From Chloroflexota bacterium (GTDB taxonomy: Bacteria > Chloroflexota > Limnocylindria > Limnocylindrales > CSP1-4), in assembly GCA_021812735.1 (NCBI GenBank), contig JAKAMV010000697.1, positions 1-5,491 on the forward strand: a stretch of 5,491 bases of DNA, written 5' to 3'. Below, piece after piece: positions 2,624-5,491 of the stretch. A program made the position numbers and the translations under genes. Position 1 is the stretch's first letter. The number at the start of each line of letters is the position of its first letter. The notes below the pieces were generated by a model, which saw nothing but the letters and a program-made list of their open reading frames with translations, searched no databases and was not told the origin of the DNA.

Positions 2624-2665
2624 GGTGGGCAGCTCCCCGGCGGGGCAGGCGGCGGCAGCACGACA

Positions 2666-2710
2666 GGGCGGTCGGCGCGTCGGGGGGCACGTCCGGCGTG
2701 CCGACCGCCC
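2666..2710. promoter_or_regulatory. Strong inverted repeat in the comEA leader
   Basis: Perfect 11-base arms GGGCGGTCGGC (2666-2676) and GCCGACCGCCC (2700-2710) can be extended inward to a 19-base-pair stem with a loop of about seven bases (2685-2691). The inner part relies on three G-T pairs as read on the plus strand; on the minus strand these become C-A mismatches. The element sits 43 bases before the comEA GTG. Neither strand has a T-run after it, so it is not a classical intrinsic terminator. It could be a leader hairpin, an attenuator, or a protein-binding palindrome at DNA level. Confidence 0.5.
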
Positions 2711-2716
2711 TTGGCC

Positions 2717-2764
2717 CGGGATCCTAGGCCGGCTGACTTATCTCGGGCTTACGCCCCGGTCCCG
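2717..2764 (-). other. Possible nested RNA fold with a GNRA-type tetraloop in the comEA leader
   Basis: Read on the minus strand, CGGGA (2764-2760) can pair with TCCCG (2721-2717). Just inside, CCGG (2759-2756) can pair with CCGG (2732-2729), and a GGGC-GTAA-GCCC hairpin (2756-2745) lies between; the inner CCGG and this hairpin compete for one base. The GTAA loop is a GNRA tetraloop only on this strand, which favours minus-strand RNA. It matches no riboswitch or ribozyme consensus that I recognise. Short GC-rich pairings arise easily by chance here, so confidence is low. Confidence 0.25.
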
Positions 2765-2853
2765 CGAGCCGTCGGCCGCCATCGGCGCATCCGCACGAGC
2801 GCGAGCGGCGTCCACGCGCGCCGGGCGCTGGGGCTGGGCGGTCGGGGCAGCGG

Positions 2854-3090
2854 TCAGCGCGCCTGGCCCTCGATCAGGATCGCAGCCGTGCAGGCTGCCT
2901 CGGAGAGGGCGTGGCTGGCGTCGCTCAGCGCGCGGACCGGGCGGGCCGCGATCGCACGGAGACGGCTCGGCTGGCGCGGGCCTCCCGGGGCGGCCGCGGC
3001 GGCGCGTGCCGCCTGGCGGCGCTGCACAAGCTGCTGAATCTCGCGCTCCCGATCGCTCGCGATCTGGATGGCCAACGGCAAGTTCATCAC
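2854..3090 (-). CDS. Small basic hypothetical protein, 78 residues
   Basis: I do not recognise a family. The N-terminal half is predicted helical and charged (IASDREREIQQLVQRRQAARAA, about residues 10-31), followed by an Ala/Pro/Gly/Arg-rich linker and a second Ala-rich helix (about 54-74) with a single Cys (67). There is no signal peptide or membrane segment. An AGGAG (3103-3099) lies eight bases before GTG 3090 and eleven before ATG 3087. GTG gives a four-base GTGA overlap with the upstream 37-residue ORF; ATG gives a one-base TGATG overlap like that of comEA-comEC. Either start implies coupling, and I prefer GTG on spacing. It may be a small DNA- or membrane-associated accessory protein, but function is unknown. 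The good ribosome binding site, the coupled start and the upstream promoter argue that it is a real gene rather than a chance ORF. Confidence 0.62.
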   Translation of the reverse strand: MMNLPLAIQIASDREREIQQLVQRRQAARAAAAAPGGPRQPSRLRAIAARPVRALSDASHALSEAACTAAILIEGQAR

Positions 3091-3200
3091 GAGTGGTGCT
3101 CCTGGCTGTCGATCGTGAACCCGTCACGGCTCTCGGACCCGGCGGCGAAGGCAACGACCCCGAGAAGGGCGAGCAGGATGATGAGGGTGAGTACGTCCAC
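3087..3200 (-). CDS. Short single-helix membrane peptide, 37 residues
   Basis: This ORF begins at GTG 3200, ends at TGA 3089-3087, and is too short for most gene callers. The peptide starts VDVLTLIILLALLGVVAFAAG, a hydrophobic segment (about residues 3-20) suited to one membrane helix, followed by a polar tail (22-37) ending QEHHS. GGAG (3212-3209) lies eight bases before the GTG, an ideal spacing. An in-frame TGA further upstream, with no intervening ATG or GTG, makes this the only sensible start. About 33 of 37 third positions are G or C, as in neighbouring genes. Its stop overlaps the next start (GTGATG). It is first behind the promoter at 3257-3285. I recognise no family; possible roles are a membrane tether or small regulator acting with the 78-residue protein, which is inference. 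Confidence 0.6.
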   Translation of the reverse strand: MDVLTLIILLALLGVVAFAAGSESRDGFTIDSQEHHS

Positions 3201-3256
3201 GACACGAACTCCGATGGGCCGTTTCGTAACCGGCCAGGATCATCTGAACGGTTATG

Positions 3257-3285
3257 AATCTACCGCCTTGCGCGTAACCTGTCAA
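3257..3285 (-). promoter_or_regulatory. Sigma70-like promoter of the small-gene operon
   Basis: On the minus strand a perfect TTGACA -35 (3285-3280) is followed after exactly 17 bases by TAGATT (3262-3257), a four-of-six match to TATAAT. The expected transcription start near 3250 leaves about 50 bases of leader before GTG 3200. The GGTTAYG copy at 3273-3279 lies in the spacer next to the -35, and the copy at 3250-3256 lies at the start site, an arrangement typical of repression. Confidence 0.65.
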
Positions 3286-3297
3286 TAGCTGTATTGT
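3268..3297 (+). promoter_or_regulatory. Candidate promoter of the CGNR regulator gene, possibly giving a leaderless mRNA
   Basis: TTGCGC (3268-3273) and TATTGT (3292-3297) are 18 bases apart. The -10-like hexamer ends only nine bases before ATG 3307, and no Shine-Dalgarno sequence precedes that ATG. Transcription would therefore start within a few bases of the codon. The match to consensus is moderate (three and four of six). The promoter overlaps and faces the minus-strand promoter, so the two should interfere. Confidence 0.42.
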
Positions 3298-3306
3298 GGT
3301 TACGAG

Positions 3307-3930
3307 ATGAACGCTGAGCACACGCACACCGCCAGCATCGACGTGACGGCCGACTTCCTGAACACGCTCTCGATCGACGACGGTGTGCCCGTGGAGCACC
3401 TCTCGGGCGTCGAGGACGCGATCGCCTTCCTGGCCGGGCGCGGGCTGGCCCATGAGGACGCGCTCCGCGGCCAGGCGGCCACCGCCGGCGACCGCGCCTG
3501 GCTGGAGCGGGTCCGCCAGACGAGGGCCGCGCTCCGGGCACTGTGGGACGCGGAGGTCGAGCACGGCACCCCCGACGCGACGGCGATCGACACGCTGAAC
3601 GCCGTGCTCCGGGAGGCGCCGCGGATCGAGCTCGTCGTGGGCGACAGCTGCTGCGGTGTCCGTCACCGCCACACGGCCGACGACCCCACCGGCGAGGCGC
3701 TGGCGCGGCTCGTGGAGCCCTTCGTGGCTGCCGTTGCCGCCGACACGACCGATCGCCTGCGGATCTGCGCCAACGACGACTGCCGCTGGGCCTTCGAGGA
3801 CACGTCGCGCTCAGGACGACGCCGCTGGTGCGATATGACCACGTGCGGCAATGTCGCGAAGGCGCGCCGGCACCGGGCGCGCCAGAGGGCGGGCTCGGCG
3901 ATCGAGCTCGTGGACGAGGCGGCTCGCTGA
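3307..3930 (+). CDS. ABATE/CGNR zinc-finger transcription regulator
   Basis: This 207-residue protein belongs to the putative stress-induced regulators with an N-terminal ABATE domain and a C-terminal CGNR zinc finger, presumed DNA-binding. The N-terminal hallmark DFLNTL is at residues 16-21, and the ABATE region runs to about 145. The zinc finger starts LRICANDDCRWAF and continues RRRWCDMTTCGNVAKARRHRAR; its presumed zinc ligands are Cys154, Cys159, Cys175 and Cys180. The basic tail (185-194) would contact DNA. The name-giving CGNR motif reads CGNV here (180-183), an Arg-to-Val change. ATG 3307 puts DFLNT at the usual distance from the N-terminus, and there is no ribosome binding site. Length is normal for the family. 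It is divergent from the small-gene and com genes, and four GGTTAYG sites in the shared promoter suggest autoregulation and control of the divergent operon. The ligand or stress signal is unknown. Confidence 0.94.
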   Translation: MNAEHTHTASIDVTADFLNTLSIDDGVPVEHLSGVEDAIAFLAGRGLAHEDALRGQAATAGDRAWLERVRQTRAALRALWDAEVEHGTPDATAIDTLNAVLREAPRIELVVGDSCCGVRHRHTADDPTGEALARLVEPFVAAVAADTTDRLRICANDDCRWAFEDTSRSGRRRWCDMTTCGNVAKARRHRARQRAGSAIELVDEAAR

Positions 3931-3950
3931 CGGACGGCGGCCGCCGTTCG
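3931..3950 (+). terminator. Hairpin immediately after the CGNR gene
   Basis: CGGACGGC and GCCGTTCG flank a GGCC loop, giving an eight-base-pair stem (one G-T pair) that starts at the base after the stop codon. It contains the 14-base perfect palindrome 3934-3947. There is no T-run, so termination activity is uncertain, although in very GC-rich genomes such hairpins often stand at gene ends. Confidence 0.35.
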
Positions 3951-4001
3951 ACACGGGATGGTCAGGCCACCCCCGCGCCGATCGCAGGCGGCGTGCTGCG
4001 G

Positions 4002-4054
4002 CGGATGCGGACGAGGTGCCATCGCCACACGGCTGCGCGGCCAGCCCGCATCCG
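4002..4054. repeat. Long-range inverted repeat with a nested hairpin between genes
   Basis: CGGATGCGG (4002-4010) and CCGCATCCG (4046-4054) are perfect nine-base complements separated by 35 bases. Inside lies GGCTG (4031-4035) with CAGCC (4042-4046), which shares one base with the outer arm. No coding frame here looks real on either strand. It may be a terminator-like structure, part of the leader of the downstream membrane gene, or chance in GC-rich DNA. Confidence 0.3.
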
Positions 4055-4087
4055 AGCCTGCCCCGCGCGCATACTCGTCACACGGTC

Positions 4088-4128
4088 GTCACGCCGCGGG
4101 CACTGGCGTCACGCTGCGGGCGATTGGC
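4088..4128 (+). repeat. Imperfect tandem repeat before the membrane-protein gene
   Basis: GTCACGCCGCGGGC (4088-4101) recurs as GTCACGCTGCGGGC (4108-4121), matching 13 of 14 with a 20-base period, and each copy is followed by a short stretch ending TGGC. A partial GTCACAC precedes at 4077-4083. The second copy ends just before the ribosome binding site of the gene at 4143. A period of about two helical turns would suit paired regulator sites, but no clear promoter hexamers were found around it. Confidence 0.4.
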
Positions 4129-4142
4129 GTGAGGGTCGGCAC

Positions 4143-4604
4143 ATGAGCGTGTCCACAATGGCCCGGCTTGCCGAGGGCGACTCGGCCGAGCCCGATTCCT
4201 CGCTCCAGAGTGCGCTGCGGCTGCTCGCGGCCTACATCCCGTCGGAGGCGCTGGCGCTCTACATCGCGGTGCTGGGCCTGCTCAACCCGTCACCAGAGGC
4301 CACCGGGACGGACGTCATGGTCGTGCGGCTCATCTGCCTCCTGATCGGGCTGGTCGTCGCGGTGAGCCTGCCCTTCGTGACCTTCAAGGGCGGCAATCTG
4401 ACGCGGCGCGAGCAGCGCAAGCGCCAGGTGATCGTGGCCGCCCTGGCGGCAGTCGCGTTCGTCGTCTATGCCGCGACCATGCCGTCGTTCTTCTTCAGCG
4501 CCACGATCCTGACGATCGGCTTCAGCCAGTGGGCGGCCGTCGCGGCCGTCCTCGTGGCGTTGTTCCTGCCGCTCCTCGCCCGGCGTCTCGGCGTGCGCAA
4601 GTAG
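4143..4604 (+). CDS. Four-helix integral membrane protein of unknown function
   Basis: The 153-residue product has a polar N-terminus (1-24) and four hydrophobic segments at roughly 27-47, 60-80, 95-112 and 128-146. A strongly basic loop (82-94, GGNLTRREQRKRQ) lies between helices two and three. By the positive-inside rule this loop is cytoplasmic, which also puts both termini in the cytoplasm. The first helix carries AAYIPSEALALYIA, whose Pro and Glu within a membrane segment are unusual and probably functional. I cannot name the family. ATG 4143 is chosen because GAGG (4131-4134) lies eight bases upstream; ATG 4158 is a weaker alternative. The frame stays open upstream into the CGNR gene, but that extension is basic, low-complexity and out of frame with a secure gene. 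A repeat pair just upstream may regulate it. It could be a small channel or transporter-like protein; nothing in the sequence decides this. Confidence 0.82.
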   Translation: MSVSTMARLAEGDSAEPDSSLQSALRLLAAYIPSEALALYIAVLGLLNPSPEATGTDVMVVRLICLLIGLVVAVSLPFVTFKGGNLTRREQRKRQVIVAALAAVAFVVYAATMPSFFFSATILTIGFSQWAAVAAVLVALFLPLLARRLGVRK

Positions 4605-4658: not shown

Positions 4659-5491
4659 CTACGACTGCTCGAGCAGAGGCTTGACCTCGGCGGCGAAGCG
4701 GGTCATCGACTCCTCGTCGTAGTCGGCCGGGACGCCGGCGATCAGGTGCCGGTAGCCGAGCCGCACCTTCGGCGCCAGCTTCTCGACCACCTGCTCCACG
4801 GTGCCCACGGGCTGGTCGGTCCACAGCCGCGGCACGCGGTTCCGCGCGAACGCCGCCTCGAACAGTCGCTGCGCCTCCTTCGGGTCGTCGCGGATGAACA
4901 CGGTCCCGATCCCCGTCGTGCGCTCGATCGTGGACGGGTCGCGGCCCACGGACTCGCAGTGGCGCAGCAGGACCTCCTCCTTGTGGCGCATCTCGTCCGG
5001 CGTCCCGCCGATGTTGTTCATGTCGCCGTACATCGCCACCAGCTTGAGCGTGACCTTCTCGCCGCCACCGCCGATGCAGATCGGCAGGTGGGCCTGGACG
5101 GGCCCCGGGAGGTTGCGGACCTGCCTCGCGCGGTAGTGATCCCCAGCGGCGGACGGCTCCTTCCCGTCGAGCATCCCGCGCATCACCGGCAGGGCCTCGC
5201 CCAGCCAGCGGAGCCGCTCCGGGAAGCCCGAGCCGAACTCGATCCCGAACGCCTCGTGCTCCTCCTCGAACCACGCCCCGCCGATCCCCAGGATGGCCCG
5301 GCCGGCGCTGATGTGGTCGAGCGTCGTCGCCATCTTCGCGGTCAGCGTGGGCGTCCGGAACGTGTTGGCGCCGACCATGAGCCCCACCCGGATGCGCCGC
5401 GTCGCGGTCGCCCAGGCGGTGATCGTCAGCCAGCCCTCGTAGTTGGGGCCGTGCGAGTCGCCGACGATCGGGTAGAGGTGGTCCCAGGTCC
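4659..5491 (-). CDS. LLM-class F420-dependent oxidoreductase, Rv1855c-like (N-terminus cut by window edge)
   Basis: This is a luciferase-like monooxygenase-fold enzyme predicted to use the deazaflavin F420 for hydride transfer in the cytoplasm; the substrate cannot be told. There are 276 residues visible from the right edge to TAG 4661-4659. Visible residues 1-20 include TWDHLYPIVGD, the first-strand region of the barrel. GRAILGIGGAWFEEEHEAFGI, a hallmark of the TIGR03560/Rv1855c group, follows at about 64-84. PICIGGGGEKVTLKLVAMYGD (about 136-156) is the glycine-rich segment near the cofactor phosphate. The usual length is near 300-330 residues, so roughly 30-50 N-terminal residues and the start are missing. 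GTG 5387 is only an internal Val codon, because homologous sequence continues upstream of it. FMN use is the alternative, but the group resemblance favours F420. It converges on the membrane-protein gene and shares a hairpin terminator with it. Confidence 0.93.
   Translation of the reverse strand, partial: TWDHLYPIVGDSHGPNYEGWLTITAWATATRRIRVGLMVGANTFRTPTLTAKMATTLDHISAGRAILGIGGAWFEEEHEAFGIEFGSGFPERLRWLGEALPVMRGMLDGKEPSAAGDHYRARQVRNLPGPVQAHLPICIGGGGEKVTLKLVAMYGDMNNIGGTPDEMRHKEEVLLRHCESVGRDPSTIERTTGIGTVFIRDDPKEAQRLFEAAFARNRVPRLWTDQPVGTVEQVVEKLAPKVRLGYRHLIAGVPADYDEESMTRFAAEVKPLLEQS

Follow-up and report, generated by a model that had tools for sequence, protein, structure and literature searches.

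What does a regularly spaced array of short inverted arms do between two diverging genes, and which protein might read it? The question is raised by a 5,491-nucleotide stretch of DNA from a Chloroflexota bacterium (hereafter the window), in which such an array occupies a 106-base intergenic stretch (3201-3306), with an ABATE-CGNR gene on one side and a divergent pair of small open reading frames (ORFs) on the other. Judged from sequence, the array is very probably an operator read by one subfamily of ABATE-CGNR proteins, with members in several phyla.

Array geometry and the adjacent CGNR protein

On the + strand, the array comprises two units of CGTAACC-N18-GGTTAYG, at 3225-3256 and 3273-3304, whose starts lie 48 bases apart. 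This pattern matches three times across both strands of the window, compared with a mean of 0.00 in 200 dinucleotide shuffles, bearing out the unit structure, 18-base spacing and 48-base offset described in the first-pass annotation; the third match, on the - strand, arises because the arms of the lower unit are perfect complements. Taken singly, the arm GGTTAYG has exactly four matches in the whole window, every one of them inside the array (shuffles: mean 0.17, largest 2). We refer to these stretches, found by pattern scan and assigned to neither strand, as putative operator units 1 (CGTAACC-N18-GGTTATG, 3225-3256) and 2 (CGTAACC-N18-GGTTACG, 3273-3304).

An arm scan places the left and right arms of upper unit 1 at 3225-3231 (arm 1, GGTTACG, - strand) and 3250-3256 (arm 2, GGTTATG, + strand), and those of lower unit 2 at 3273-3279 (arm 3, GGTTACG, - strand) and 3298-3304 (arm 4, GGTTACG, + strand); all four are conserved in relatives. 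Arm 2 lies immediately downstream of the divergent -10 element. Arm 3 sits between two opposed -35 elements, overlapping the forward one by a single base, and arm 4 falls between the probable CGNR -10 and the ATG. Over 33 loci, the spacers of units 1 and 2 have on average 6.2 of their 18 positions in common; the arms are therefore common to the units and the spacers are not, as had been noted for the window. An RNA element was also considered, and no Rfam family reaches its gathering score anywhere in the window.

The adjacent regulator gene (3307-3930, + strand) encodes 207 amino acids, with an N-terminal ABATE domain (PF07336, 54.5 bits against a cut-off of 24.4) and a C-terminal CGNR zinc finger (PF11706, 68.1 bits against a cut-off of 24). 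The CGNR motif itself is spelled CGNV in this protein, and its predicted zinc ligands, C154, C159, C175 and C180, are invariant across 37 aligned sequences. At E <= 0.001 it has 1861 relatives. Searching solved structures with Foldseek returned one match at the same threshold, 3h0n (Jann_2411; E 1.3e-06, probability 1.00, TM 0.51/0.55, rmsd 8.4), which is also the best sequence match. The AlphaFold model has a mean pLDDT of 78, with residues 11-100 mostly above 88, 101-120 near 60, 151-170 near 80 and 171-207 at 41-55, so that the model is poor for the latter half of the finger.

The window protein thus resembles Jann_2411 in carrying both the ABATE and CGNR domains, in its four cysteines and in its fold match. 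In the accessible part of their report, the authors of that structure proposed that the finger binds DNA, that the protein is likely a dimer with a cavity at the dimer interface, and that the ABATE domain binds an unidentified ligand, freeing the DNA; they cautioned that the quaternary state is hard to infer across the rest of the family (PMC2954205). By analogy, the proposed dimer would suit two half-sites read by two fingers. Elsewhere, the accessible parts of two reports place a CGNR gene among tabulated expression changes in a Bordetella pertussis culture (PMC9976334) and a COG5516 protein among the genes enriched in rapid-growing mycobacteria (PMC6985099). The literature that we searched, which mostly excluded subscription journals, holds no operator or tested target for any ABATE-CGNR protein, in agreement with the earlier remark that no described operator of this form was known for CGNR proteins.

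Conservation, promoters and the divergent operon

The first-pass annotation had named the absence of conserved arms or spacing upstream of orthologues as a refutation test, and we ran this comparison; its outcome did not refute the proposal, since nearly all related loci of the phylum keep the arms and the 18-base spacing. A profile built from 37 homologues found 483 relatives in a species-level genome collection, from which the best 80 loci were kept. Our related set consists of L001-L042, of which 41 carry the label Chloroflexi, Chloroflexota or Limnocylindrales and one (L012) that of Isosphaeraceae; the nearest named relatives of the window's organism are Chloroflexota, some labelled Limnocylindrales. 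Allowing spacers of 16-20 bases between TAACC and GGTTA, we found 66 units in 41 of the 42 related loci, all just 5′ of the CGNR match, with a spacer of 18 in 63 units, 17 in three and 16, 19 or 20 in none. Where two units are present (25 of the related loci), their starts lie 46-58 bases apart. Spacing is thus fixed inside units and loose between them, as expected from two separate dimer sites. The collecting pattern partly dictates the arm letters in the unit alignment; how many loci have units, and how these are spaced, is evidence free of this constraint.

The one related locus with no TAACC/GGTTA unit upstream at these spacers is L003, a close relative whose CGNR match begins at residue 25. 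On visual inspection, the sequence upstream of it looks like that of the window near 2600-2760, so that a deletion or an assembly fault may be involved. A further locus labelled Chloroflexi, L050, lies outside the related set and holds one GTAACT-N18-GGTTAC unit together with one unit of spacer 17.

For counts by arm and promoter element, we placed the arms with the core TAACCTGTCAA, which is present in 41 of 43 loci, the window counted. L003 and L026 were left out of these counts, though L026 holds two exact units. With at most one mismatch in the arms, the upper unit has a spacer of 18 in 31 of the 41 loci and of 17 in two, and was not located in eight; the corresponding numbers for the lower unit are 36, two and three.

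These units sit over two opposed predicted promoters. On the - strand, TTGACA-17-TAGATT (3257-3285), the predicted divergent promoter, is the sole match in 2650-4200 of a scan for sigma-70-like promoters (one found; shuffle mean 0.0), and the TGTCAA hexamer beside arm 3 is its -35. This -35 is present with at most one mismatch in all 41 loci with the core, partly by construction, because the core contains TGTCAA. A divergent -10 with at most two mismatches at 16-18 bases is found in 33 of the 41, compared with 3.9 expected from shuffles. On the + strand, we read the probable CGNR promoter from the sequence as TTGCGC-18-TATTGT (3268-3297, with TTGCGC at 3268-3273 and TATTGT at 3292-3297), which the same scan of 2650-4200 did not return; an alternative -10, TGTATT, two bases upstream of TATTGT, scores equally. 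In 40 of 41 loci, the 18-base spacer contains a forward -10 with at most two mismatches (6.2 expected from shuffles). The forward -35 is weaker, matching TTGACA with at most three mismatches in 39 of 41 loci, a raw count without shuffle control. The earlier placement of the array over two opposed promoters therefore finds support in predicted -10 matches above shuffles on both sides.

The arms of the lower unit enclose the probable core promoter of the CGNR gene. The first ATG past arm 4 is in the CGNR frame in 39 of 41 loci; its distance from the start of that arm is 6-14 bases in 37 of the 41, and in the window the CGNR ATG follows the probable forward promoter by 9 bases. With an ATG this near, the CGNR mRNA is probably leaderless, as judged from the position of the start codon. 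Paired inverted repeats thus overlap both predicted promoters of a divergent gene pair, as in autoregulated divergent operators.

On the other side of the array, the proposed first gene of the divergent operon encodes a 37-amino-acid peptide with a GTG start (3087-3200, - strand), for which hydropathy predicts a single membrane helix. Its stop is overlapped by the start of a 78-amino-acid ORF (77 from ATG; 2854-3090, - strand, from the ORF list), which has no Pfam domain and matches 17 proteins at E <= 0.001, itself included. We surveyed 42 loci for such genes (the window and L001-L042 without L003), taking in each the most hydrophobic ORF among those that start within about 230 bases across arm 3. 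In 36 of these loci, this ORF codes for a peptide of 32-52 amino acids, and 35 of the 36 peptides contain one strongly hydrophobic stretch (peak mean hydropathy at least 2.3). The sequence G-x-[DE]-[ST]-R follows the helix in 31 of the 42 loci, and a second ORF of 51-91 amino acids comes next after the peptide in 33 of the 36. The case for the small peptide, made without a chance control, rests on this recurring motif and on position.

Other genes surround this region. Downstream of the CGNR gene, a 153-amino-acid ORF (4143-4604, + strand) matches nothing in Pfam or NCBIfam and contains hydrophobic stretches. Genes in 3-2623 and 4659-5489, both on the - strand, include one with a Competence/lactamase domain (ComEC-like), one with SLBB and helix-hairpin-helix domains (ComEA-like) and a luciferase-like oxidoreductase; none has an evident link to the array.

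Motif distribution and further candidate targets

Beyond these upstream regions, we examined how the motif is distributed with respect to CGNR genes in 151 genomes from the class of L001's genome, sampled evenly from a larger group, with PF11706 called at E <= 0.001. TAACC-N18-GGTTA occurs at 90 sites in 46 of these genomes. Of the sites, 88 belong to the 76 genomes that have PF11706 and two to the 75 that do not. By genome, 44 have both the motif and a CGNR gene, two the motif only, 32 CGNR only and 73 neither (Fisher p 7.5e-15, relatedness ignored). The reversed pattern, our control, gives 20 sites, 8 of them in PF11706 genomes. At some CGNR genes from genomes without the exact motif (L121, L125, L132 and L143), the left arm is TAACT and the spacing is unchanged. 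When the motif is relaxed to TAACY-N18-RGTTA, 60 of the 76 CGNR genomes have a site, compared with 4 of the 75 others, and CGNR genomes account for 127 of 131 sites, compared with 30 of 79 for the reversed control; the relaxed motif is absent from 16 of the 76 CGNR-bearing genomes of the class. Among the 75 exact sites listed of the 90, 57 are upstream of a zf-CGNR match at a distance of 456-707 bases, and 18 lie away from CGNR, two of these in genomes without PF11706.

The association extends to other phyla, where some CGNR genes have the motif in front of them. Ten of the 38 loci L043-L080 contain the exact pattern. In a scan of ten genomes, the relaxed motif occurs at 21 sites against 25 for the reversed control (2 against 2 in Burkholderia); there is no genome-wide excess in these ten large genomes, and so only placement is informative. 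The 6.1-Mb genome of Burkholderia dolosa has just two relaxed sites (C34:22898 and C34:22935), 37 bases apart and both just 5′ of the CGNR gene at C34:22293. This genome has two more CGNR genes, of which L200 has the motif with a spacer of 17 and L181 lacks it. In the phylum of this genome, where 17 of 150 genomes have PF11706, TAACY-N17-19-RGTTA precedes 18 of 24 CGNR loci (shuffle mean 0.12), and in the phylum of a Streptomyces genome, where 35 of 80 do, it precedes 5 of the best 30 loci (shuffle mean 0.06). The suggestion that the array might be a recognition motif for the CGNR family therefore stands for part of the family and fails for the whole, since 25 of the 30 actinobacterial loci lack the motif (for one of these, L161, no upstream sequence is available).

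Many actinobacterial CGNR genes have other inverted arms, such as AACACC/GGTGTT, GCAACC/GGTTGC and TCATGA/TCATGA, which in several cases (L152, L156, L163, L165, L169 and L175) are 17-18 bases apart. In an unbiased inverted-repeat scan of 31 loci lacking the motif, spacer 18 scored highest (10 against 3.8 in 8 shuffles, with 28 spacers tried), a peak that is suggestive only, as several of the matches are G+C-rich and look like chance. A second scan, with 6-base arms, covered 33 upstream regions, namely L012 and 32 of the 38 loci L043-L080 (L059, L064, L069, L071, L077 and L078 were excluded), and gave no clean peak at spacer 18 (z 2.2, compared with 6.1 at spacer 4 and 4.3 at spacer 16). In several Burkholderia loci the arms extend inwards, so that TAACC-N18-GGTTA is also scored as a 6-base arm with spacer 16. 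The differing actinobacterial arms, which come from a weak scan, may represent subfamilies with altered half-sites.

Sites away from CGNR genes were examined in 15 stretches of the class, three of other phyla and six more. A regulon scan, as proposed earlier, brings up further candidate targets that recur in related genomes. An AzlC gene lies downstream of a single unit in five genomes (L208, L209, L210, L213 and L215), with the unit no more than about 40 bases from a possible start codon. A SnoaL-like gene follows a unit in L112 and L202 by Pfam and in L111 and L113 by reading only; in L111, L112 and L113, the single unit lies directly 5′ of the gene, over what by eye is an apparent promoter. 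A pyridoxal-dependent decarboxylase is found on the opposite side of the site in L113 and is itself preceded by the site in L201. An EamA transporter follows the unit in L116 and L203, both of which have an isochorismatase-domain gene on the opposite side, and also stands opposite CGNR in L026, L028, L034 and L040, four distant relatives in which no small peptide was found; these four cases beside CGNR and two remote from it place EamA at the array in six loci. In two actinobacterial genomes, an alpha/beta hydrolase is preceded by two sites 54 bases apart (L216) or by one (L217), away from any CGNR gene found, where the genome-wide CGNR search covers L216's genome. No recurring neighbour accompanies the sites in L114, L115, L204-L207, L211, L212, L214 and L218, which may be chance occurrences. 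With these, and with two CGNR-remote sites in genomes lacking PF11706, some of the sites are probably due to chance.

A putative autoregulatory operator and its alternatives

Taken together, we consider it likely that the array is the operator of the adjacent ABATE-CGNR protein, which would bind as a dimer to each unit and repress both its own gene and the divergent operon until a signal arrives. The arms, their spacing and conservation, the promoter overlap and the association with CGNR genes are computed, and from these we infer the binder, one dimer per unit, repression over activation and a ligand. One CGNR dimer would occupy each TAACC-N18-GGTTA unit, so that either of its treble-clef zinc fingers would contact a single GGTTA half-site, with the half-site centres 23 bases, or about two helical turns, apart. 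On unit 2, the dimer would cover the CGNR core promoter from its -35 side to just short of the start codon, and should close this promoter when bound; arm 3 of this unit abuts the divergent -35. Bound to unit 1, a dimer would cover the start region of the divergent operon. With dimers over both promoters, CGNR would repress itself and the divergent two-small-protein operon, and in relatives a few transporters and enzymes would be repressed as well. A signal, presumably sensed by the ABATE domain, would then release CGNR from the DNA.

More tentatively, and with slightly less than even confidence, we propose that the ABATE-CGNR family shares one operator geometry of short inverted half-sites 17-19 bases apart, whose letters vary by subfamily as one treble-clef dimer scaffold is retuned, and that the operon under its control in the window's lineage is an undescribed one, encoding two small proteins and associated with the membrane.

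Other readings of the array differ in which protein binds and what follows from binding. CGNR might own this operator and yet activate transcription, or switch it from one promoter to the other, rather than repress both. Repression and activation are not distinguishable from sequence, and such a role would fit both the forward -35 (TTGCGC), which is weaker than the divergent TTGACA, and the adjoining of arm 3 to the divergent -35. We nevertheless think it unlikely, since arms 3 and 4 flank the CGNR core promoter and single units lie over the apparent promoters of L111, L112 and L113, arrangements that are typical of repression. It is more doubtful still that a different transcription factor binds the array and controls the CGNR gene and the divergent operon, with CGNR a mere target. 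We infer CGNR as the binder, and the 18 of 75 listed sites away from CGNR could belong to such a factor; the near absence of the motif from genomes of the class without PF11706 (2 of 90 sites) and its marking of CGNR genes in other phyla argue against it, as the second factor would have to share a distribution computed for PF11706.

Two further readings dispense with an operator. In one, the conserved sequence is only a divergent promoter pair, with the arms as promoter parts; in its favour, TGTCAA is conserved to the same degree as the arms of unit 2, in loci and units that were partly found through TGTCAA. Arms with equal spacing recur, however, before other genes and in other phyla, and unit 1, which is without TGTCAA, keeps both its arms and its spacing, which largely refutes this very improbable reading. 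To chance or local duplication we give practically no credence: 0.00 matches are expected, the spacers differ, and arms and spacing are conserved across loci from many species, in keeping with the initial argument against duplication.

The reading of the array as a CGNR operator bears on a common family, with PF11706 found in 76 of 151, 35 of 80 and 17 of 150 genomes sampled. Because the motif occurs in several phyla, the targets of a family named from a crystal structure become predictable and testable, and the motif points to transporters (AzlC, EamA) and small enzymes as controlled by part of the family. Compared with the work on Jann_2411, we propose a specific operator, its geometry and candidate targets; the accessible part of that report contains neither an operator nor a target gene, nor any binding data (PMC2954205).

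A divergent autoregulatory operator is of a familiar kind, and the CGNR recognition motif and its wide half-site spacing appear undescribed in the literature searched. In the TetR/TetA system, regulator and target diverge over paired inverted repeats that overlap both promoters, and the array likewise has opposed genes and paired inverted repeats over both promoters, as in autoregulated divergent operators of this type. Typical TetR or MarR operators have half-sites closer together than 18 bases. In contrast, the half-sites described here, of 5-7 bases and 18 apart, form a wider arrangement, which we propose is read by a treble-clef zinc finger rather than by a helix-turn-helix.
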